From positions 1,120,001 to 1,184,000 of the forward strand of contig NZ_CP132542.1 of NCBI RefSeq assembly GCF_030845175.1: a stretch of DNA of 64,000 nt, given 5' to 3'. The notes under the pieces are model-generated. The model saw only the letters and a program-made list of their open reading frames with translations. It did no database searches and was not told the DNA's origin. How positions within the stretch are numbered: the first letter of the stretch is position 1; each line of letters starts with the position of its first letter. The translations under genes were made by a program, and so were the position numbers. Positions 517 through 64,000 of the stretch are shown here, one piece after another. Source of the DNA: Coralliovum pocilloporae (GTDB lineage: Bacteria > Pseudomonadota > Alphaproteobacteria > Rhizobiales > Cohaesibacteraceae).

Positions 517-3126
517 TCAGGCTGCGATCACATCACCCGCCTGCGTCTCAAAGAACAGGTGATCTCCCTTGGCTGTCACAATCAGAGACTGGCCATCTGA
601 AATATCACCAGACAACAGTTTTTCAGCCAACAGGTCCTGTACATAACGCTGGATAGCCCGTTTCAGCGGGCGCGCGCCGAAAGCCGGGTCATACCCCTTG
701 TCTGCCAGCCAGCTTGTGGCCGATCCGTCAAGCTCCAGTTCAATCTGCCTGTCTTTCAACAAAGCCTGCAGCCGCCTGATCTGGATTTCGACAATCCGCC
801 CCATCTGCTCTCGCTTGAGCTTGTGAAACAGCAGGGTCTCATCCACACGATTGAGAAATTCGGGGCGGAAATGCCCTTTCACCGCATCCATCACCGGCTC
901 GCGGACCGTATCCACGTCAGCACCATCGGCCAGAGACGTCATGAATTCGGCACCAATATTGGATGTCATGATCAGAAGCGTATTGCGGAAATCAACGGTC
1001 CGACCCTGACCGTCTGTCAGGCGTCCATCATCAAGAACCTGCAACAGTACATTGAACACATCAGAATGCGCTTTTTCGATCTCGTCAAACAGGACAACCT
1101 GATAGGGACGACGGCGCACAGCTTCCGTCAGCGCACCGCCTTCCTCATACCCCACATAGCCGGGAGGCGCACCAATCAGACGAGAGACAGAATGCTTCTC
1201 CATATATTCTGACATATCCAGCCGAACCATGGCCGTTTCATCATCAAACAGGAAATCCGCCAGAGCCTTGGTGAGCTCGGTTTTCCCAACGCCTGTCGGT
1301 CCAAGGAACATGAAAGACCCGATCGGCCTGTTTGGATCCTGCAGTCCGGCCCGGGATCGGCGCACGGCCTTAGACACAGCCTGGACAGCATCCGACTGAC
1401 CAACAACACGCCGGGAAAGGCCATCTTCCATGGACAGGAGCTTCTCACGCTCCCCGGACAGCATCTTGTCAACCGGCACACCGGTCCAGCGGGAAACGAT
1501 ATGCGCGATATGGTCCGGGTTGACGGTTTCATCCAGCATGGATCGACCGGTCTCTTCCCCGTCTTTTTCAGCGTCTGCCTCAGCCAGTTTCTGTTCGAGG
1601 TCAGGAACAATTCCGTAGGCAAGCTCACCGGCACGCGCCAGATCGCCCTGCCGCTGTGCCCGCTCCAACTCACTTCTGGCCTGATCCAATTGCTCTTTCA
1701 GATCCTGCGTATCTGAGAGTTTGGACTTTTCCGCCTGCCAGCGCTGAGCAATCGACTGGGACTGGTCTTCAAGATCAGCAAGCTCTTTCTCAAGGCGTTC
1801 GAGCCTGTCTTTCGATCCCTGATCAGTTTCAGCCTTCAGGGCTTCGCGCTCAATCTTCAACTGAATAATCCGGCGGTCCAGCTCATCAAGCTCCTCCGGC
1901 TTGGAATCGACCTGCATGCGCAGACGGGACGATGCCTCATCCACCAGATCGATCGCCTTGTCCGGCAGAAAACGGTCGGTAATATACCGATTGGACAAGG
2001 TTGCCGCTGCAACAAGGGCAGAATCAGCAATACGAACACCGTGATGCAGCTCGTATTTCTCTTTGATGCCACGAAGAATGGAGATCGTGTCCTCCACGTT
2101 GGGCTCACTGACAAAAACAGGCTGGAACCGCCGAGCAAGCGCTGCATCTTTCTCAACATGCTGGCGATACTCATCCAGCGTGGTCGCTCCAACACAATGG
2201 AGTTCACCACGAGCCAGGGCAGGTTTCAGCAGATTGGAAGCATCCATGGCCCCGTCTGCCTTCCCGGCTCCAACCAGTGTATGCATCTCATCAATAAACA
2301 GGATGATCGAACCATCCGCTGATTGAACTTCCGACAGAACAGCCTTCAGACGTTCCTCAAACTCTCCCCGATATTTCGCACCGGCAATCAGCGCGCCCAT
2401 ATCGAGAACCATCAGGGCTTTGTCGCGCAGTGATTCAGGGACGTCACCATTGAGGATCCGCAGGGCTAACCCTTCGGCAATTGCTGTCTTGCCAACCCCG
2501 GGCTCGCCAATCAGAACAGGATTGTTCTTTGTACGCCTGCTGAGCACTTGAATTGTTCTACGGATTTCCTCATCGCGACCAATAACCGGGTCCAGTTTGC
2601 CGTCGCGTGCATCCTGTGTCAGATCGCGCGCATATTTCTTCAGCGCATCATAGCCATTTTCGGCTGACGCCGTATCTGCAGTGCGGCCCTTGCGCAGTTC
2701 ATTGATCTGGCGGTTCAGCGCATCGGCTGTCACGCCGCCATGTTTAAGCGCCTTCCCGGCTTCTGTGCCTGTCTCAAGACATAAAGCCAGCAGAAGCCGC
2801 TCAACGGTCACAAAGGAATCGCCCGCCTTGGTCGCAATTGATTGCGCCTTCTCAAACACCCGGGCCAACGGTGCTGCAAGATAGATCTGACCATTACCGC
2901 CCTCCACCTTGGGCAGTTTTGACAGGGCCTGGTCATTGGCCTTGATAATATCCGCAACCCGACCGCCTGATGCGTCGATCAATCCGGCGCAAAGGCCTTC
3001 GGAATCATCCAGCAGAACCTTGAGCACATGCTCAGGCGTGAATTGCTGATGTCCCTGGGCAAGGGCACTATTCTGCGCAGACTGAATGAACCCGCGCGAA
3101 CGTTCAGTAAATTTTTCAAAAGACAT
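517..3126 (-). CDS. clpB: ClpB, ATP-dependent disaggregase
   Basis: Hexameric AAA+ chaperone that works with DnaK/DnaJ to extract polypeptides from cytoplasmic aggregates. The 869-residue protein has the full ClpB architecture: N-terminal Clp-N repeats (start [11 protein letters not shown]), first AAA+ module with Walker A GEPGVGKT, the long coiled-coil M domain that separates ClpB from ClpA/ClpC, a second AAA+ module with GPTGVGKT, and the C-terminal small domain. The ATG at 3126 is chosen over an upstream in-frame start because the family begins at MSFEKFT and an AGAGG ribosome-binding site sits just before it. The gene is monocistronic, facing the M23 peptidase. A possible heat-shock promoter is listed separately. 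Confidence 0.97.
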
Positions 3127-3229
3127 CTGGTTACCCTCTTTAGCCCGCTGACCTCGCCCATAATGGCACGCGATCAACGACTCGAACCAATTTCAAGCAC
3201 AGCTCCCAGACAGGCAAGCTGCATCATTA

Positions 3230-3258
3230 ATATAGGGCCGACCAACCGTCACAAAAAG
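3230..3258 (-). promoter_or_regulatory. Possible RpoH-type heat-shock promoter of clpB
   Basis: On the minus strand CCTATAT (3230-3236) lies 18 bases downstream of CTTT (3255-3258). This resembles the alphaproteobacterial heat-shock consensus CTTG-N17/18-CYTATNT, with one mismatch in the -35 half. It would place transcription start about 97 bases before the clpB ATG. The spacing and the clpB context are suggestive; the match is imperfect. Confidence 0.3.
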
Positions 3259-3293
3259 ATGCAGCCGCACAAAATCAGAAGGGGCCAGGCCAA

Positions 3294-3326
3294 ACAAAAA
3301 AGCCCGATCGCATGATCGGGCTTTCT
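3294..3326 (-). terminator. Terminator of the DUF4167 gene
   Basis: An 11-bp stem (AAAGCCCGATC / GATCGGGCTTT) with loop GCAT at 3310-3313, followed on the minus strand by a run of T residues. It starts about 27 bases after the DUF4167 stop codon. Confidence 0.85.
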
Positions 3327-3352
3327 CAAATCCGGATGAACCTTTCAGGGTT

Positions 3353-3976
3353 CTATTCTTCAGCAGGCGTCGCCTCAGCTTTCGGCGTACGCCGACGCGG
3401 CGCACGGCGCGGAGCCGGGGCAGCGCCCTCTTCATCACCTGCAGATGCTGTAACAGGCTTTCTCGGAGCACGAGGCTTGGAAACACGACGACGCGGTGCA
3501 GGCTTGTCTGCATCCCCATCGTCAGAAGCCTGCATCATCGACATGGCGGCCAGGCCATTTTCGCCTGCGTCTTCGCCCCTGTCTGCAGCGGGAGTATCAG
3601 AAGCAGCCTTCTCGCCATGTCCGGATCCGTTCACCTGCTCCGCAGCAACGCCGGTTTCCGCCAGAACTTCATCAGATCCCGGAACAGCAACATCGCGAGG
3701 CTGGCTCTGCTCAGCTTCGCGCGTCTGCTGAGCCTGTGACTGGGCAGCAGCGACAATACGAGAATAATGCTCAGCATGCTGAAGATAGTTTTCAGCGATT
3801 ACGCGATCACCGGCCGCCTGAGCATCCCGGGAAAGAGCAAGATACTTGTCAGCAATATGAAGTGCAGTTCCTCTGATTTTCACATCAGGGCCATTGCTCT
3901 CATATGTACGGCTTAGTGGATTCGGGCCCTTACGATTACGGCCACGCATTCTTTTGTTAGACTGTCCTTGCCTCAT
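3353..3976 (-). CDS. DUF4167 domain-containing protein
   Basis: Conserved alphaproteobacterial protein of unknown biochemical function. Residues ~1-75 form the DUF4167 domain: a basic start (MRQGQSNKRMRGRNRK), then a helical block that includes ENYLQHAEHYSRIV. The remaining ~130 residues are low complexity, with an acidic/Ala-rich middle and a basic Arg/Pro tail (RRRVSKPRAPRKP). Such a basic tail would fit RNA or nucleic-acid binding, but this is inference. The ATG at 3976 is preferred to the GTG one codon upstream because family members begin MR. It sits between prmC and clpB, its usual rhizobial position, and has its own terminator. Confidence 0.9.
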   Translation of the reverse strand: MRQGQSNKRMRGRNRKGPNPLSRTYESNGPDVKIRGTALHIADKYLALSRDAQAAGDRVIAENYLQHAEHYSRIVAAAQSQAQQTREAEQSQPRDVAVPGSDEVLAETGVAAEQVNGSGHGEKAASDTPAADRGEDAGENGLAAMSMMQASDDGDADKPAPRRRVSKPRAPRKPVTASAGDEEGAAPAPRRAPRRRTPKAEATPAEE

Positions 3977-4309
3977 CACGCCATTCTCTATTCAGCGTCT
4001 TGCCAGGTGATCCAGGATCACGGCAGGTGCTGTCGGCTACGTGTTACAGGGAGTTTACACTGAAGAGTGCTCGGCCTCACCCAATCCGTTTGCAATCGAA
4101 CCATGCAGAAGCACCAGCTCGAAAGCCATCCACGCCAATCATGACACAGAAACTAAATCAACGGGTCCCAGACCCATCTCCCGGTTGCCTTGAAGGAAAG
4201 CCCGATGCGACAAGCAATCAGTCAAGCGCCTTTCGGTGAACGGACCCTAGCTGTTTCATCAGGATTTTCCAAGCCTTTTTTATAAAACAATCGGGACAAA
4301 ACCGTCTTT
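3977..4309. other. 333-bp intergenic gap, prmC to DUF4167
   Basis: Both flanking genes run leftward, so this gap should hold the DUF4167 promoter and the prmC 3' end. I see no convincing ORF, no strong terminator after prmC and no clean sigma-70 match. A short T/A-rich run (about 4273-4315) follows the prmC stop. A small RNA cannot be excluded by eye. Confidence 0.5.
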
Positions 4310-5197
4310 TTATACCTCAAACCATATGACGCGATCCTGTTGCTCCAAATCACGCACCAGATGAGGTTCCCTACCGGAGGTTTCTCGCACAATTTCAGCC
4401 ACCGCCCTGCCCTGGTCGTATCCGATTTCGAAAAACCCGGCGCGCAATCCCGAAGGCTTGTTATGGGCAACCATCAGCATCATCGTTTCATAGGCAATCA
4501 GGCCTGACAGGCCACCATCAAGAGCTCGCATCGGATCATGACACCGGACCTCCTCAGACAGGGTTTTAATAACCGGGGTGGCGATATAGGGAGGATTCGA
4601 GACCAGCAGGTCACAGGCGCCAATCACGTCCAGATATGATCCACAGACTGGGAAAAAGCGTGCACCGACACCAAGATTTTCAGCATTGCTGCGCGCGACC
4701 CTTAACGCATCAAGACTGATATCAAGAGCGACACATGTTGCATTCGGAAGTTCATGCAGAAGGGCAATAGCGATACAACCGGTTCCGGTTCCGACATCCA
4801 CAAGGCGCAGAGCCTGGCTCCGCCCACCATTGTGATCAATCCAGTTCAGGACGGTTTCAACCAGAACCTCTGTATCCGGTCGCGGCTCAAGCGTCTCCGG
4901 CCCCAGCCTGAAGGAAAGACCCCAGAAGTCCCGGCGCCCCAGGATGCGGCCGACCGGCTCCTGCGCAACCCGGCGAACAAGCCACTCATTCAGTAGGGCG
5001 CATTCCTCACCGGACAGGGCAAGATGTCCGCTTGTAATCAGACCCGCACTCTCCGTCTGGAAGGCTGCAAGGCAGAGGTGGCGGGCATCCAGCGCTGGAT
5101 TGTCCAGCCCTGCGGCCCTGAGATGATCGCGAAACAGCCTGACAGCCTGCTCTCGCGTTACATCTGGTGTAAAGACCTCATTCGGAATGACCGTCAT
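4310..5197 (-). CDS. prmC: PrmC, release factor glutamine methyltransferase
   Basis: N5-glutamine SAM-dependent methyltransferase that modifies the Gln of the GGQ motif in peptide release factors. At 295 aa it has the N-terminal helical release-factor-binding domain, SAM motif [10 protein letters not shown] (~133-141) and the diagnostic NPPY tetrad at 201-204, which binds the glutamine side chain. Its ATG overlaps the prfA stop codon by four bases (ATGA at 5194-5197), so enzyme and substrate are translationally coupled. A GTG-free unambiguous ATG and the overlap fix the start. Confidence 0.96.
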
Positions 5198-45469: not shown

Positions 45470-46246
45470 TCAGCCCACAACATTCCACAGTGTCGTCCCC
45501 AGCAGATTCAGAGCCAGTATGGTCAGGAGAGCCTTGAAAACTCTTTGGAAAAGCTCCGGGCTCAGGCCTTTCAGAATATGCGTACCCAGACGCGTGCCGA
45601 GATAACCGGAACCGATCATCAGAACAATCAGACCCAGCCAGTCGGCGAAGGCAAAGCCAAGAAAACCGAAGACCAGAATCTTGATCAGGTGCTGGATGCT
45701 CATGCAGGCAGCATGGTTGGCGACAATTTCAAAGCGTTCTGAGAACCGTGACGACAGGCTGGCCGCAACAAAGGGCCCCGTCACTCCTACAAACATGGTG
45801 AGGATGGTCGACAGAGCCGCCATCATGGAGACAGACAGGGTCGAATCCGCATCCATCCGAAGTTTTGGCCCCCAGGTCACTAAAAGGATGAATATCCCGA
45901 CGAGTCCCTTCAGGAGAGTTGCTGGCAGCTCCACTGCAATCTGCCCCCCGATGAGGCCACCCACAACACTTCCAACAAGAAACCAGACAATGGTGGCCCG
46001 GTGAAGAAAGGCCCGCTGGATGATCATCCGGGACAGATTGGACCCAAGCTGGACAACACCATGCACCGGTATCAGGGCCGGACCAGGCATAGTGCTGGCC
46101 ATCACGGCCAGAAGCACCATCCCGCCACCGATGCCAAGAGCCGCCGTCAATGCTGAGGTCATAAAGCTGACACCGATCAGCAGCAGGCTGAGCCAGAGGC
46201 CAAGATCATCAGGCAGAACAGTGAACAGAAATGCTGCCGGTTCCAT
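45470..46246 (-). CDS. TauE/SafE family permease
   Basis: 258-aa integral membrane protein with about eight helices in two half-repeats (LTAALGIGGGMVLLAVM in the first, LTMFVGVTGPFVAASLSS in the second), the TauE/SafE/DUF81 pattern. Named for sulfite export in taurine metabolism, but most members have no known substrate. Its ATG overlaps the M20 hydrolase stop by one base, so the two are coupled. The soe operon 16 kb away makes a sulfite link tempting but unproven. Confidence 0.9.
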   Translation of the reverse strand: MEPAAFLFTVLPDDLGLWLSLLLIGVSFMTSALTAALGIGGGMVLLAVMASTMPGPALIPVHGVVQLGSNLSRMIIQRAFLHRATIVWFLVGSVVGGLIGGQIAVELPATLLKGLVGIFILLVTWGPKLRMDADSTLSVSMMAALSTILTMFVGVTGPFVAASLSSRFSERFEIVANHAACMSIQHLIKILVFGFLGFAFADWLGLIVLMIGSGYLGTRLGTHILKGLSPELFQRVFKALLTILALNLLGTTLWNVVG

Positions 46247-57968: not shown

Positions 57969-60497
57969 TCACCGCCCATCAGCATCCGGGCCTGTGGCGT
58001 CAGGCATATCACGCTGAGCTCTTTGCGGGCGCTTCGCGATTGAGGCTGCAGACTTGTCCGACTTTTTCCCGTCCGCAGGGTCAGCCTCTCCCTTGATCAG
58101 GGCTGCCAGCCGATCCACATCACGCAAGTGAATGTCACGCTGCGGGAATGGCATTTCGATGCCCTCTTCCCGGAACCGGTGCATGATATCAAAGCGCAGA
58201 TCACTGCTCACCACCATCACATAGCCGATATCTTCCAGGAAACACCGCAATTCGAAATCGAGAGAACTGACTCCGAACCCGATGAAATAGACCTGCGGCT
58301 CGGGGTAAGACAGGACCATGTCATGGGCTCTGGCACACTCAAACAGAATCTCGCGAACCTGATCCGGATCCGAGTCATAACTGACACCAACAGGCACGGT
58401 AATCCGGCCCATCGTATTGCCATGAACATAATTGGTAACCGTGCCTGAAATCAGATCAGAATTCGGCACAATCATCGACGCGCGGTCAAAGGTCTCAATC
58501 TCGGTTGCCCGAACGTTGATCCGCTTCACCGTCCCATGGGTGCCACCGACAACGATCCAGTCGCCCACCTTGATCGGACGCTCGGCCAGCAGAATAAGCC
58601 CGGACACGAAATTGTTGACGATACTCTGCAGACCGAAACCGATACCAACGGACAGGGCACCGGCAACAAGCGCGATATTGGAAAGATCAAGCCCCGCATG
58701 GGAAAAACCCACCATGACCGCGACAATGACACCGATATAGCCAAGCCCGGTCGTAATGGAATGCTGCAGTCCCACATCCATACGCGTTTTCGGCAGGAAC
58801 CGGTTCTGTAGCCAGCGCTGAATGCTCTTGGTTGCTACGAGAACAACAAGGAACAAGGCCACCGCTGTTGCAATAAGAGCAGGAGACAGGCGGATATTGC
58901 CGACCTCAAAGCCGCTGAGAACAGAGGTGAGAGACGCAAAGATCTCGTCTGATTCAAACCCCCAGGGAGCCGCCACCAGCATAAAGGCCAGCAACAGCAG
59001 AAGAAGCTTTGTAAAGCCACTCAGAACAACGGCGAGAAGCGCGGCGCGACTTTCCGACAGTCCTATGGTCCGGGTCAGAATCCGCCCGACCGGGGCATCA
59101 GACTGGAAACCGGTGCTGAACAGCTCTTCAGCCGCGCTGAGAAGCAGAACCAGAATGGACAGAATGATGCCGATACCAAAGATCTGTGTTGCAATGAACG
59201 AACCAAGCGGCACGTAACCGATAATCGTTGCTGCAATTGCGATAACAGACGCCATCCAGCCCAGCGGCAGCATCCAGCGCCACAAGACCGGCCCTCTGGT
59301 TTCACCGCCTGCATCCTTACCCTGAACCGCATCCTGCCTGCGCAGGTTGGCGATCATGGTCCGCGCCAGAAGGAAGGCAAGCGTAGGCATCAGAACCCCG
59401 TGCAGGGCAGACAGGGCGATCGTGAAGCGGAGCGGCAGGATCAGAACATCCCGCACTTCGGAAAGAACGATGAAAACACCCTGAACAATTGCCATCGAGA
59501 CGATGAGCCAGAACGCCTTGTGCGCATTCAGGCTGTCAATATCGACCAGCCGCCAGGCTGGCCGCAATGGAGCCAGAAAGGCACGCGCCAGTCCTTGGGT
59601 CATCGTAATCAGGACAATGGCCCCGGTCAGTGACTTCATCAGCCGTTCGATATGCCGTGGCATCAACTCCATGGAATTGAGTGTGAAAATGATCAGCCCG
59701 AGGCCAATCACAGGCACAATGGTGTTGATGAAGACTGTTCCGGCAGCTGCCATCCGCTTCTCGAACAGACTCCCGGGTTCCGCCCGGCTGCTTCTGCTGG
59801 CAAGCCGTACCAGAAAACGTCTGCCGAATGACGCGATAAGCAGTCCGGCAACAAGCACCAGGCCAATCAGCTGCGGCGCTGATTTCTGGGCATTCTCGAT
59901 CAGCGTGACCAGCCAGCCGGCCAGTGTATTGAACAGGCTGCCGATGGCATCCGGTGTCCGTTCAAGAACAAACCACCAAAGCTCGGGGTTGAGAGCACTT
60001 GTCTCACGGGTAAACAGGGCACGGGTGAACAGGTCCGTCCGCTTCTCGCTGACAATTGCCAGAAGCTGCTCGGTCCGCACTTCAATCACACTGGCCTGCT
60101 TACTGACCCCGTCAAAAACAGCCAGCTGTTCCTGCAGATCCTTGCGCTGGGCAATCACCGCATCCGATTCAGCCTGTTCCACGCCTTCATTATCAGATGG
60201 CTTCTCAGGTTCCAGCTCGGCAATTCGCGCGCGCAATTGCTCCTGCTGCGGAATCTGGGCTTCGCGAAGCGCCTTGGCATCAGAAGCAATCTTGAGAATC
60301 TGCTTCCGGGCAAGCTCAAGACCCGTGTCCCCAAGGTCCTCTGATGTGAGAGACATCTCGAACCGATCAAGCCGCCCCTGCCAGGCTTCCAGCGAAGAGA
60401 GATGCTCATCCGAGAACCCCGACAGACTGGTCAGAACCATACTTGCAAGGCCAATCAGAAGAGCCAGCAAACCGGCACGGTAGGAACGAACTGTCAT
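57969..60497 (-). CDS. MscS family mechanosensitive channel with DUF3772 domain
   Basis: 842-aa membrane protein. Signal/TM at the N-terminus (~8-27), a periplasmic DUF3772 helical domain (~30-190), then several helices and the MscS pore and beta domain (~600-790): ALSVGIGFGLQSIVNNFVSG, LLAERPIKVGDWIVVGGTHG, RATEIETFDRASMIVPNSDL. A cytoplasmic Arg/Lys-rich tail ends the protein. It opens under membrane tension. The ATG at 60497 is used because the signal segment follows it directly. About 174 bases separate it from the soeC-like gene. Confidence 0.9.
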   Translation of the reverse strand: MTVRSYRAGLLALLIGLASMVLTSLSGFSDEHLSSLEAWQGRLDRFEMSLTSEDLGDTGLELARKQILKIASDAKALREAQIPQQEQLRARIAELEPEKPSDNEGVEQAESDAVIAQRKDLQEQLAVFDGVSKQASVIEVRTEQLLAIVSEKRTDLFTRALFTRETSALNPELWWFVLERTPDAIGSLFNTLAGWLVTLIENAQKSAPQLIGLVLVAGLLIASFGRRFLVRLASRSSRAEPGSLFEKRMAAAGTVFINTIVPVIGLGLIIFTLNSMELMPRHIERLMKSLTGAIVLITMTQGLARAFLAPLRPAWRLVDIDSLNAHKAFWLIVSMAIVQGVFIVLSEVRDVLILPLRFTIALSALHGVLMPTLAFLLARTMIANLRRQDAVQGKDAGGETRGPVLWRWMLPLGWMASVIAIAATIIGYVPLGSFIATQIFGIGIILSILVLLLSAAEELFSTGFQSDAPVGRILTRTIGLSESRAALLAVVLSGFTKLLLLLLAFMLVAAPWGFESDEIFASLTSVLSGFEVGNIRLSPALIATAVALFLVVLVATKSIQRWLQNRFLPKTRMDVGLQHSITTGLGYIGVIVAVMVGFSHAGLDLSNIALVAGALSVGIGFGLQSIVNNFVSGLILLAERPIKVGDWIVVGGTHGTVKRINVRATEIETFDRASMIVPNSDLISGTVTNYVHGNTMGRITVPVGVSYDSDPDQVREILFECARAHDMVLSYPEPQVYFIGFGVSSLDFELRCFLEDIGYVMVVSSDLRFDIMHRFREEGIEMPFPQRDIHLRDVDRLAALIKGEADPADGKKSDKSAASIAKRPQRAQRDMPDATGPDADGR

Positions 60498-60671
60498 GGT
60501 CAAAAGCGATCCCCAGACCTGGCGGGCACAAACATGGAAACCCCGATGCAAAACACCGCCCGGCACAATATTGAACTATCCTGTTTCATACAGAAAAGGC
60601 AGCGTGTTGAACACCCTGCCCTATGTTTGCTGTATGGAAAACCCGTCAAGAGGCCAAGCCGGGATCGAAAC

Positions 60672-61613
60672 TCATTGTTCAAGTCCGTTTTCAAGCGACT
60701 GGCCGTAATAAAGACTGACCGTGTGCCTGGCTTCCGCAAAGAACAACCAGCGCTCCACGAATGTGCCTGCAAGATAGCTGAGAACCGCAAGTGTCAGGAT
60801 CAAGGCAGCCGCAATCCCGCTCACTGCATAACTTGCCACCAGAAGAACCGCAGGCGCACCAAGACCGAGGATCCAGGTAATCCGCCGCAGGGCAAGCGCA
60901 TGCTTTCTGGCAACAACATAACCCATTTCCCGATTGAGGTAGTTGTCCGTCATATGCGGTTTGTCGAGAAGACGGACAGGGCCGAAGCGGCCAAGCCCCG
61001 TTGCCGTTTCAATACTGGCCGGAGCCCGGTCCGTATCTGCCCGGCGCCACCAGAACCCTTTGATCACCCAGGTGAAAACGAGGATTGCCAGTGCAAGCCC
61101 GGCATCTCCCTTAACGGAATGCCCGGAAAAGGACCCTATCGCCACAGCACCCAGATACCCGCCCGTTAAGGAAAACAGCGCATAGGTTACACAGGTCAGA
61201 GGCGTTGCCCAGTGATGGACCGTCTTCAGCTGGGCATAGATCATCGACGTGCAATAGACAGTCGTAATAGACAGGAGCGACGCCACAACAGCGAGAATAT
61301 GCCAGTTCTCTCCGAGAATAATCGCACCAAATGCCGCAAGCCCCATTGGAATGAAGCCGATAACGGCGGCAACACCTTCACGCGATAGCCAGCTTGACCG
61401 CCATTGCGAAAAGGCCAGAACAGCACGCTCCGGATGTCCCAGATGCAGGGTGGACGACAGAAGCCCGCCACCGATTGTCGCAAGAGCAATCACATAGCCG
61501 ATTTTCCCGGCAAGAGTTGTCGGATCAATGAGGGCAAAGCCATACATGACAATCAGGCCGTAGCCGAACCCGGTCAGTGTGGTGAAGAAAATGACGGAAT
61601 AAGCGGGATGCAT
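60672..61613 (-). CDS. soeC: SoeC-like membrane anchor (DmsC/NrfD family)
   Basis: 313-aa integral membrane subunit with about eight helices, matching the DmsC family: MHPAYSVIFFTTLTGFGYGL, LLSSTLHLGHPERAVLAFSQWRSSWLSREG and GALGWHW-like LAVVASLLSITTVYCTSMIYAQLKTVHHW. It anchors the molybdoenzyme and connects it to quinone. The conserved His/Glu in HLGHPE and SREG may contact quinone. It begins four bases after the soeB-like stop. Confidence 0.85.
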   Translation of the reverse strand: MHPAYSVIFFTTLTGFGYGLIVMYGFALIDPTTLAGKIGYVIALATIGGGLLSSTLHLGHPERAVLAFSQWRSSWLSREGVAAVIGFIPMGLAAFGAIILGENWHILAVVASLLSITTVYCTSMIYAQLKTVHHWATPLTCVTYALFSLTGGYLGAVAIGSFSGHSVKGDAGLALAILVFTWVIKGFWWRRADTDRAPASIETATGLGRFGPVRLLDKPHMTDNYLNREMGYVVARKHALALRRITWILGLGAPAVLLVASYAVSGIAAALILTLAVLSYLAGTFVERWLFFAEARHTVSLYYGQSLENGLEQ

Positions 61614-61617
61614 GGTC

Positions 61618-62367
61618 TTACTTCATCGCCTCCAGCGCCTTGTCGATCCATTTCAGGAAACCGCCCAGCTGGGCATCCGGTTCCGCCTCATTGCCTTTAG
61701 AGGTTTCGCCCTCTCCACAGCCCGCATTGCGGACCCGAGGTGGCAGATATTTGTTGACCGGACGGGTGCCCATTTCAGGCATCAGGTCCATTCCACCACG
61801 TTCCTGGACCATGCGGCTCACATCAGACGTCGGGTCCCCCAGATCACCAAAGTGACGGGCATTCGCCGGGCAGGTCCGGACACAGGCTGGAGTCCGGTCT
61901 TCCTCCGGCAGATTTTCGTTATAAATCCGGTCAACACACAGCGTGCATTTCTTCATGACATTTTCTGCCGGATCCATCTCGCGTGCGCCATAAGGACAAC
62001 TCCAGGCGCAGAGACCGCAGCCAATGCAACGGTCTTCATTGACCAGAACAATTCCATCTTCCGCTCGCTTGTAGGACGCCCCGGTCGGGCAAACCGGTAC
62101 ACAGGGCGCATCCTCACAATGCAGACAGGATTTTGGAAAATGGACAACCCGAGCATTCTGACCGGTCCCCGCCTCATAGGTATGAACCCGGTTCAAGAAT
62201 GAGCCTGAGACATCCTTGCCATAGGCATTCTCATCAGCAAGCGAGGAGCCATAGCCACCTGTATTCCACTCCTTGCAGTTGATCACACAGGCGTGGCAGC
62301 CGACACAGACGTCCAGGTCAATCACGAGGCCCAGTTTTTTATCGGTTCTGTCTGGAAGCGATGTCAT
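61618..62367 (-). CDS. soeB: SoeB-like iron-sulfur subunit (four [4Fe-4S])
   Basis: 249-aa ferredoxin-type electron-transfer subunit. Cys motifs are CVGCHACVINCK, CLHCEDAPCVPVCP, CIGCGLCAWSCP and CTLC...CVRTCP, for four [4Fe-4S] clusters. The start MTSLPDRTDKKLGLVIDLD and DLGDPTSDVSR strongly recall SoeB of sulfite-oxidising roseobacters. The ATG at 62367 overlaps the soeA stop by four bases (ATGA), confirming the start; an upstream in-frame start would run deeper into soeA. No Tat signal, so it is cytoplasmic. Confidence 0.85.
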   Translation of the reverse strand: MTSLPDRTDKKLGLVIDLDVCVGCHACVINCKEWNTGGYGSSLADENAYGKDVSGSFLNRVHTYEAGTGQNARVVHFPKSCLHCEDAPCVPVCPTGASYKRAEDGIVLVNEDRCIGCGLCAWSCPYGAREMDPAENVMKKCTLCVDRIYNENLPEEDRTPACVRTCPANARHFGDLGDPTSDVSRMVQERGGMDLMPEMGTRPVNKYLPPRVRNAGCGEGETSKGNEAEPDAQLGGFLKWIDKALEAMK

Positions 62368-64000
62368 GACGCCCCCCCGCTTTTGCCATTCGACCATTGC
62401 TGTCCATATCGGACAGTTTCCGGCGCTGCAGGAATACCCGCCGGTGTCTGCTGCCCGCCAGCATGAGGCTGGCTCAGCTCATCCGGCGGCGGATCTGTTT
62501 TCTCAATCCGGACACGCAGGTCAAACCAGGCAGCCTGCCCCGTTATCGGATCTGAATTCGACCAGCGCAGACCGTCACCACGGGGCGGCAAAAGCTCATG
62601 GATCAGATGATTCAGTAGAAATCCGCGTGTGGCCTCAGGTGCATCCGGCGAGAGCGCCCAGGCACCGGAGCGCTTGCCAATGGCATTCCAGGTCCAGATT
62701 GTGGAACTGTTCAGCGCCTCCATACGGGCAATGGGAACCGTGATCTCACCGTGATGGGATGTCACCTTGGCCCAGTCGCCTGTCTCAAGCCCGTGCTCAT
62801 CACATAAGGCTGCCGGCACATAAAGCGGGTTTGATGTGTGGATCTGCCTGAGCCAGGCATTCTGCGATCCCCAGGAATGATACATGGCCATGGGCCGCTG
62901 GGTAAGCGCATGGATGGGGAATGCGTCCTCATCAACCAGCGCTTCCTCAAATGGCTGATACCAGCATGGCAGCGGATTAAACGCCTGGTGAACCCTGTCT
63001 TTCAGATAATCCGGCGGCACCCGGTCGCCGTGCCCTTCGGCAGCCAGTCTGAATTTCTGCGCCACCTCCAGATAGAGATTGAACTGGTATGGCATGGGGT
63101 CATCATAGAAGCCCATCTCAACCGCCCAGTTCTGATACTCCATATTGAACGGCTTGAAATACTGCGCGTCTTCAGGAATGTGGTTGATCCAGAACCCGCC
63201 ATTCTCGATATAGGCCTTGAGCTGGTCAGGATTGACAGCGCCACGCCCGGCCTTGTCGCCATCCTTGCCTCTGAAACCTGCGAGAGGTCCGACACCCGGC
63301 TTTCGCTCGTGATTGACCATGTAGTCAGCATAATCCTGATATTTCGCTGACCCATCCTCATGAACAAAGCCCGGAAGGCCGAGGCGATTGGCAAGCTGAA
63401 CCAGAACAGTCTGGAAACCGCGCACATCACGATCCGGCTCAACAACCGGCCAGCGGATGGAGTCAGCTGCAGCATCCGGTTCGCAGATTGGCCGGTCCAG
63501 CAGCGAAATACAGTCATGACGCTCCAGATAGGTGGTGTCCGGAAGGACAAGATCCGCATAAGCCACCATCTCGGATGAATAAGCGTCCGAATAGATCAGC
63601 TTGGGGATCACATAGTCACCCGTCTCCGGGTCCTTGGCCTCCAGCATCTCCATCACACCACGGGAGTTCATCGACGAGTTCCACGACATGTTGGCCATGT
63701 ACATGAACAGGACATCAATGCCATAGGGCTCACGCGCATAGGCGTTGGAAATCACCATATGCATCAGCCCGTGAACGGAAAGCGGGTTTTCCCAGCTGAA
63801 CGCCTTGTCAATCCGTTGTGGTGAGCCATCCTCATTGACCGCCAGGTCTTCCGGGCCACGCGGGTACCCCAGATGTGGCCCAGCCAGCGGAGAACTGCAG
63901 TGGAATTCCGCATGCGGCCTGGGATGTGCTTCCCAGGGCTTGGGATAAGGCGGTTTAAAGCGGAATCCGCCCGGGCATTCCACAGATCCGAGAATGATCT
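62364..64000 (-). CDS. soeA: SoeA-like molybdopterin catalytic subunit, C-terminal part
   Basis: The frame continues through the right edge, so only about 545 C-terminal residues are seen; the iron-sulfur-binding N-terminus and first Mo-bis-MGD domains are missing. The fragment shows the DMSO-reductase-type fold: MYMANMSWNSSMNSRGVMEML, VAYADLVLPDTTYLERHDCISL and NLYLEVAQKFRLAAEG, and a C-terminal dinucleotide-binding barrel (RPMAMYHSWGSQNAWLRQI, LCDEHGLETGDWAKV). With SoeB/C-like partners, membrane-bound cytoplasmic sulfite dehydrogenase (quinone) is the best call. Polysulfide/thiosulfate or DMSO reductases cannot be fully excluded. Confidence 0.78.
   Translation of the reverse strand, partial: IILGSVECPGGFRFKPPYPKPWEAHPRPHAEFHCSSPLAGPHLGYPRGPEDLAVNEDGSPQRIDKAFSWENPLSVHGLMHMVISNAYAREPYGIDVLFMYMANMSWNSSMNSRGVMEMLEAKDPETGDYVIPKLIYSDAYSSEMVAYADLVLPDTTYLERHDCISLLDRPICEPDAAADSIRWPVVEPDRDVRGFQTVLVQLANRLGLPGFVHEDGSAKYQDYADYMVNHERKPGVGPLAGFRGKDGDKAGRGAVNPDQLKAYIENGGFWINHIPEDAQYFKPFNMEYQNWAVEMGFYDDPMPYQFNLYLEVAQKFRLAAEGHGDRVPPDYLKDRVHQAFNPLPCWYQPFEEALVDEDAFPIHALTQRPMAMYHSWGSQNAWLRQIHTSNPLYVPAALCDEHGLETGDWAKVTSHHGEITVPIARMEALNSSTIWTWNAIGKRSGAWALSPDAPEATRGFLLNHLIHELLPPRGDGLRWSNSDPITGQAAWFDLRVRIEKTDPPPDELSQPHAGGQQTPAGIPAAPETVRYGQQWSNGKSGGAS

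Follow-up and report, generated by a model that had tools for sequence, protein, structure and literature searches.

The window analysed here comprises 64,000 nucleotides of the Coralliovum pocilloporae genome (contig NZ_CP132542.1) and ends within an operon that seems to encode a membrane-anchored sulfite dehydrogenase of the SoeABC type. Three genes were identified there on the minus strand: soeC (60672–61613, 313 aa), for a DmsC-type membrane anchor expected to be the quinone-reducing subunit; soeB (61618–62397, 259 aa), for a four-cluster ferredoxin subunit; and the 3′ part of soeA (62364–64000), for the molybdopterin catalytic subunit, whose 5′ end lies beyond the window. This arrangement, with the catalytic gene truncated by the window edge, had been put forward in an original prediction from the letters alone, and both the open reading frames (ORFs) and the domains agree with it. 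Whole soeA (L002:4365–7241, minus strand, 958 aa) was taken from L002, a DNA stretch of the same genome that reaches past the window edge and is also the source of the upstream genes described below; its reading frame is free of internal stops in this genome, a single contig of 3,918,007 bases on which the window occupies positions 1120001–1184000.

The predicted overlap between soeA and soeB amounts to 34 bases counted from the first ATG of soeB, or to 4 bases (ATGA) counted from an internal ATG at codon 11, which is the likelier start, and a gap of 4 bases separates soeB from soeC. Pfam recognised the domains Molybdop_Fe4S4 (PF04879) and Molybdopterin (PF00384) in SoeA, with C25, C28, C32, and C60 as the cysteines of the FS0 cluster. 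SoeB contains several 4Fe-4S domains, Fer4_11 among them, and 16 of its 17 cysteines fall into four groups of four, corresponding to four 4Fe-4S clusters. The third subunit is DmsC-like, as expected, matching PF04976 with 61.1 bits (cut-off 22.3); its six clear hydrophobic segments, compared with the eight reported for NrfD-like subunits, come from a simple hydropathy scan and were weighed neither for nor against eight helices.

The first gene of the operon is pta (L002:7238–8269, minus strand), whose 3′ end overlaps the start of soeA by 4 bases, giving the order pta-soeA-soeB-soeC. Codon 15, which follows a ribosome site of the GGAGG type, is the likelier start of pta. The product is nearest to PRK08190 (279.2 bits, cut-off 282), a phosphate-butyryltransferase-like type of Pta. 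The operon is adjoined by a gene for a MocR regulator (L002:8421–9890, minus strand), labelled TauR-like because of its position and of the boxes described below, and by tauABC-like genes divergent from it (L002:10135–13387, plus strand). The TauC-like permease (L002:12122–13387, plus strand, 421 aa) extends beyond the TauC model by about 150 residues at its N-terminus and matches Big_9/tandem-95 weakly, and the TauC proteins of two relatives (loci L098 and L162) are similar in length.

Affiliation of the catalytic subunit

SoeA matched 25 NCBIfam families, none of them above its cut-off. The best was PhsA (202.7 bits, cut-off 694), with residues 19–261 only as the best stretch, and the DmsA/YnfE reductase model gave 116.7 bits (cut-off 777.7). 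Among solved structures, the top match was 2vpw, named thiosulfate reductase by its depositors, over residues 13–260.

The phylogeny was built on 48 rows, 35 of SoeA and 13 others. The SoeA rows were a subset of 145 sequences (144 loci, among which at least two genes occur twice, plus that of the window). The 13 other rows were E. coli DmsA, NapA, and FdnG, plasmid-encoded PhsA and TtrA, three distant matches, one of which exceeds the PhsA cut-off, and five enzymes encoded by the window genome, one above the NapA cut-off and one above that of formate dehydrogenase. All 35 SoeA rows fell on one side of a branch with support 100/99, present in 200 of 200 bootstrap trees, so that the full-length protein of the window groups with SoeA and apart from DmsA, PhsA, and TtrA (PsrA being outside the tree). 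Interpretation was limited to this clade, since many outgroups are long-branched and spurious groupings are flagged as a risk by the tree program. Within it, the window SoeA belongs to a 14-row starred set together with proteins of Ruegeria, Sulfitobacter, Yoonia, Roseibium, Hoeflea, and Ahrensia; its highest identity in the tree is 72%, and it is 66–72% identical to the proteins of the 80 named loci discussed below.

The lack of a twin-arginine translocation (Tat) signal, the other check that had been suggested, pointed in the same direction: the window SoeA presents neither a twin-arginine motif in its first 60 residues nor a hydrophobic stretch at its N-terminus. Of 143 SoeA-like ORFs (144 minus one without the Fe-S motif), only 3 have an RR match among the 45 residues that precede this motif, and none has a hydrophobic stretch there, whereas eight of the nine outgroup proteins checked showed the RR motif at their start, and TtrA has an RR that was missed by the pattern. 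The motif CYMCACRCG is kept in 143/144 SoeA-like loci, and GGFCSVNM likewise in 143/144; the cysteine of the latter is presumably the Mo ligand in SoeA.

Proteins of this type are found well beyond this genome. In a search of 190 genomes of the class at E 1e-60, SoeA was matched in 49, its own counted, over nearly the whole length and with at least 58% identity except for fragments in two genomes, a set far beyond chance. A survey of 299 genomes of the phylum (E 1e-30) gave 37 with a match of at least 50% identity, again including its own, and eight others with partial matches only, at 30–36% identity, with nothing in between. A search for the PhsA family in 150 phylum genomes at E 1e-100 gave no match, nor did its controls match, which makes it uninformative on absence.

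According to two publications (PMC8076601, PMC4213376), SoeABC is a sulfite:quinone oxidoreductase in Allochromatium vinosum and Aquifex aeolicus, with molybdo-bis(pyranopterin guanosine dinucleotide) and a 4Fe-4S cluster in SoeA, four 4Fe-4S clusters in SoeB, and a quinone-reducing SoeC, the catalytic subunits being proposed to lie on the cytoplasmic side. The window complex has the same subunit plan and cluster content, a likeness that refers to these descriptions. PMC6397845 counts SoeABC among the conserved components of sulfur oxidation pathways that lack SoxCD. The Allochromatium complex is described as serving inorganic sulfur oxidation, in contrast to the window genome, in which neither SoxB nor DsrA was matched.

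Sulfite source and putative operators

The original prediction had suggested taurine or other sulfonates as the origin of the sulfite, and the genome offers better support for it than the window did: pta in the operon, the adjoining tauR-like and tauABC-like genes, TauR-like boxes, and a gene for Xsc. A single Xsc above cut-off was detected (944.4 bits, cut-off 676.4; 755520–757250), and no sulfonate genes were noticed beside it. In addition, two Tpa-like aminotransferases of 458 and 461 aa were found, 72% and 69% identical to a Yoonia protein encoded between tauA and tauR-xsc. Searches of the genome at E 0.001 gave no match for SoxB, for DsrA, or for Mo-co_dimer, a domain that SorA and SoxC would be expected to contain. 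There were three PF00174 matches (frames of 322, 210, and 214 aa), the largest of which looks like MsrP by eye. Since Xsc and Tpa-like proteins are present, and SoxB, DsrA, and Mo-co_dimer unmatched, taurine or a similar sulfonate is the likely source of sulfite.

The site bound by Rhodobacter capsulatus TauR is reported to consist of direct repeats of CTGGACYTAA (PMC5320631). Boxes like this were found in the window genome before pta (CTGGTCCTAC), between tauR and tauA (CTGGCCCTAC), and twice before the distant xsc, all of these places containing sites of the form CTGGYYCTAY. Spacing to the second box was 23 bases at tauA and 21 and 22 at xsc.

Once the four own sites had been viewed, and with a half-site in mind, a looser form of the motif, CTGGNYYTAN, was defined and then tested on the 80 named loci, from which the motif had not been derived, genes with an upstream piece of 200 bases or less being excluded from the counts. 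It was found near the start of xsc in 34/40 cases, of tauR-like genes in 28/40, of tpa in 16/18, and of tauA in 6/12, compared with 14/506 for other genes. Fisher P values for this enrichment range from 1e-36 to 1e-6 and are overstated, as the counts are not independent: the loci are related, and the regions of neighbouring genes can overlap. Lower proportions were obtained for PtaW-type pta (3/9), other pta (0/24), ackA (1/18), soeA (8/80; mostly not the first gene in the loci scored), and soeC (0/74). The stricter CTGGYYCTAY was found at xsc in 8/40, tauR in 2/40, tpa in 11/18, tauA in 5/12, and controls in 1/506. A second CTGG lay 20–24 bases away in 74 of 108 sites (one of 109 having been dropped beforehand), with peaks at 22 and 23, versus four sites with one at 33–37 bases.

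Gene neighbourhoods in relatives

The set of named loci consists of the 80 with the highest scores among at least 585 relatives and is thus biased to close ones. Neighbours within 9 kb were counted in the 70 loci whose sequence upstream of soeA spans 4 kb or more, the tau genes being called by BLAST thresholds of our own setting; genes overlapping an over-long soeA start, such as pta of L098, were missed. Within this distance, xsc was present in 40/70 loci, a tauR-like gene in 39/70, and one or more of tauR, xsc, tauA, and tpa in 47/70. Arrangements include tauR-tauABC-soeABC in Ahrensia (L162) and tauR-xsc-pta-soeABC in Ruegeria (L103, L141). That of the window genome is not unique, as similar ones exist in L094, L120, and L164, where soeABC has no xsc nearby but is preceded by pta or ackA and a tauR-like gene, and in L098, with tauR, tauABC, and pta but without xsc.

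The closest described cluster is that of Ruegeria pomeroyi DSS-3, where PMC4334477 names SPO3557-3560 and SPO3562 as soeC, soeB, soeA, pta, and tauR, citing a dissertation for soeABC, and where SoeA and SoeB are annotated as cytosolic. As in the window genome, soeABC, pta, and tauR are clustered. In contrast, xsc lies apart in the window genome and tauABC is divergent from the regulator, and a Pta of another type than the phosphate-butyryltransferase-like one is found in Ruegeria locus L103.

Other details were observed in these neighbourhoods. By BLAST, L097, L139, and L149 have homologues of both Pta and AckA between xsc and soeA, differing from the statement in PMC5320631 that both never share a TauR regulon. 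Locus L107, from a Roseovarius metagenome-assembled genome, encodes between xsc and soeA a citrate synthase-like protein (by eye; 3427–4572, plus strand) and a Pta-like gene on the opposite strand (2533–3408, minus strand), and similar opposite-strand Pta matches were seen in other roseobacters. Finally, on plasmid p4 of Azospirillum brasilense (L179), soeABC and xsc are clustered with genes for an aldehyde dehydrogenase and for ATP-grasp and CoA-binding proteins, and tauABC is replaced by a tripartite tricarboxylate transporter; the cluster may serve the use of another sulfonate such as sulfoacetate.

Interpretation and rival explanations

Taken together, these data argue for a cytoplasm-facing, membrane-anchored sulfite:quinone oxidoreductase (SoeABC) serving taurine breakdown, a reading to which we assign a probability of about 0.88. 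The name given in the original prediction therefore stands by virtue of the tree, the missing Tat signal, and the gene set, with sulfite as substrate, the oxidative direction, and quinone as acceptor predicted from homology. In the pathway envisaged, taurine would be imported by TauABC and converted by a Tpa-type aminotransferase into sulfoacetaldehyde, which Xsc, encoded elsewhere, would split into sulfite and acetyl phosphate. The latter would be turned into acetyl-CoA by Pta, and sulfite, which is toxic, would be oxidised to sulfate at the molybdenum centre of SoeA, from which electrons would pass through the FS0 cluster and the four clusters of SoeB to quinone at SoeC. The TauR-like MocR regulator is predicted to bind the repeated CTGG boxes and so to activate tauABC and pta-soeABC together with xsc at its separate locus.

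Several results weigh against this explanation. With respect to gene linkage, xsc lies 0.43 Mb from the soe operon, and the tpa candidates are also unlinked to it and have no copy of the motif upstream of either. None of tauR, xsc, tauA, and tpa was found upstream in 23/70 named loci or, within the same phylum, in any of eight loci that are more distant (two from one genome); thus, soeABC is not universally tied to taurine. With respect to family assignment, the regulator passes, among the families shown, only the general PdxR cut-off (342.1 versus 320 bits), and TauA (154.9 bits, cut-off 304.25), TauB (287.7, cut-off 357), and TauC (235.5, cut-off 342) are below those of the taurine models, so that taurine as the substrate is a family-level assignment. 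The negative searches for SoxB and DsrA carry less weight in that the control genomes gave none above cut-off either, and the tree rows include neither a biochemically proven SoeA (Allochromatium, Aquifex) nor PsrA. As for the operators, pta is preceded by a single well-fitting box, the second one, 23 bases away, being imperfect (GTGGCCCAAT) and beginning with GTGG, which occurs five times in the list for this upstream stretch. Across the genome, a 13-letter operator pattern is not over-represented (eight matches versus six for the reversed control); four of the eight are upstream of tauA/tauR, pta, and xsc (two at xsc), and the other four are inside open frames.

PsrABC, PhsABC, TtrABC, and DmsABC share with the window complex the architecture of complex iron-sulfur molybdoenzymes, and work in the reductive direction. 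An outward-facing sulfur-compound reductase of the Psr/Phs/Dms type would have the same three-subunit plan, and PhsA and 2vpw were indeed the best family and structure matches. However, the PhsA score is far under its cut-off and limited to the N-terminal part, the reductases have Tat-type starts in those checked and lie outside the separate SoeA clade (except PsrA, absent from the tree), and pta in the operon and the adjoining taurine-type genes do not fit such a function, which is therefore very improbable here. Equally improbable is that the complex accepts electrons from the taurine dehydrogenase TauXY, as the TauR regulon study suggests for bisC, hybA, and dmsC, genes so named in TauR regulons of some Rhodobacterales (PMC5320631). 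This suggestion, which runs counter to sulfite oxidation, would be in line with the TauR-like boxes preceding the operon in the window genome, and to judge from their names these genes are probably soeA, soeB, and soeC, respectively. Nevertheless, the same source describes TauXY as cytochrome c coupled, so a cytoplasmic molybdoenzyme would not be needed, the complex is also found without taurine genes upstream, and TauXY could be bypassed by the Tpa-like aminotransferases.

A third alternative keeps SoeABC and assigns its main sulfite supply to other sulfonates entering at sulfoacetaldehyde, or to cysteine breakdown. The location of xsc and the tpa candidates outside the operon, the many relatives without taurine genes near soeA, and the transporter that replaces tauABC on the Azospirillum plasmid are favourable to it, but soeABC lies next to pta and to tauR-like and tauABC-like genes, with like boxes before xsc, tauA/tauR, and pta, and we regard it as unlikely.

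Under taurine-linked sulfite oxidation by SoeABC, a split pathway can be proposed with reasonable confidence: xsc would have left a tauR-xsc-pta-soeABC block and kept its repeated TauR-type boxes, one regulator still linking both loci, and the "BisC/HybA/DmsC acceptor of TauXY" would actually be SoeABC, by which sulfite from taurine would be channelled into respiration. No literature on such a split xsc arrangement turned up in a limited reading, which is weak evidence of absence. The operon is of a known kind in one more genome, with a cluster known from Ruegeria pomeroyi, and the known picture of SoeABC is unchanged; the displaced xsc under like operators is the sole mildly notable point. 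It provides a well-supported reason why this alphaproteobacterium could gain electrons from sulfite while using taurine, and the likely operators make the link between sulfite production and oxidation testable. It may also help annotation, as plasmid records name such genes "molybdopterin oxidoreductase family protein" and "DmsC/YnfH family" anchor.

Two further genes of the window deserve mention. A TauE/SafE-family permease, taken in the original prediction as a hint of sulfonate use, is indeed present (45470–46246, minus strand; PF01925, 63.4 bits, cut-off 32.6) and is a possible sulfite-related exporter, but it lies 14 kb away, outside the operon, and its link to soeABC is unproven. The other gene, which follows soeC on the minus strand at a distance of about 0.1 kb, encodes a large MscS-family mechanosensitive channel with a DUF3772 domain (57969–60566, 865 aa).

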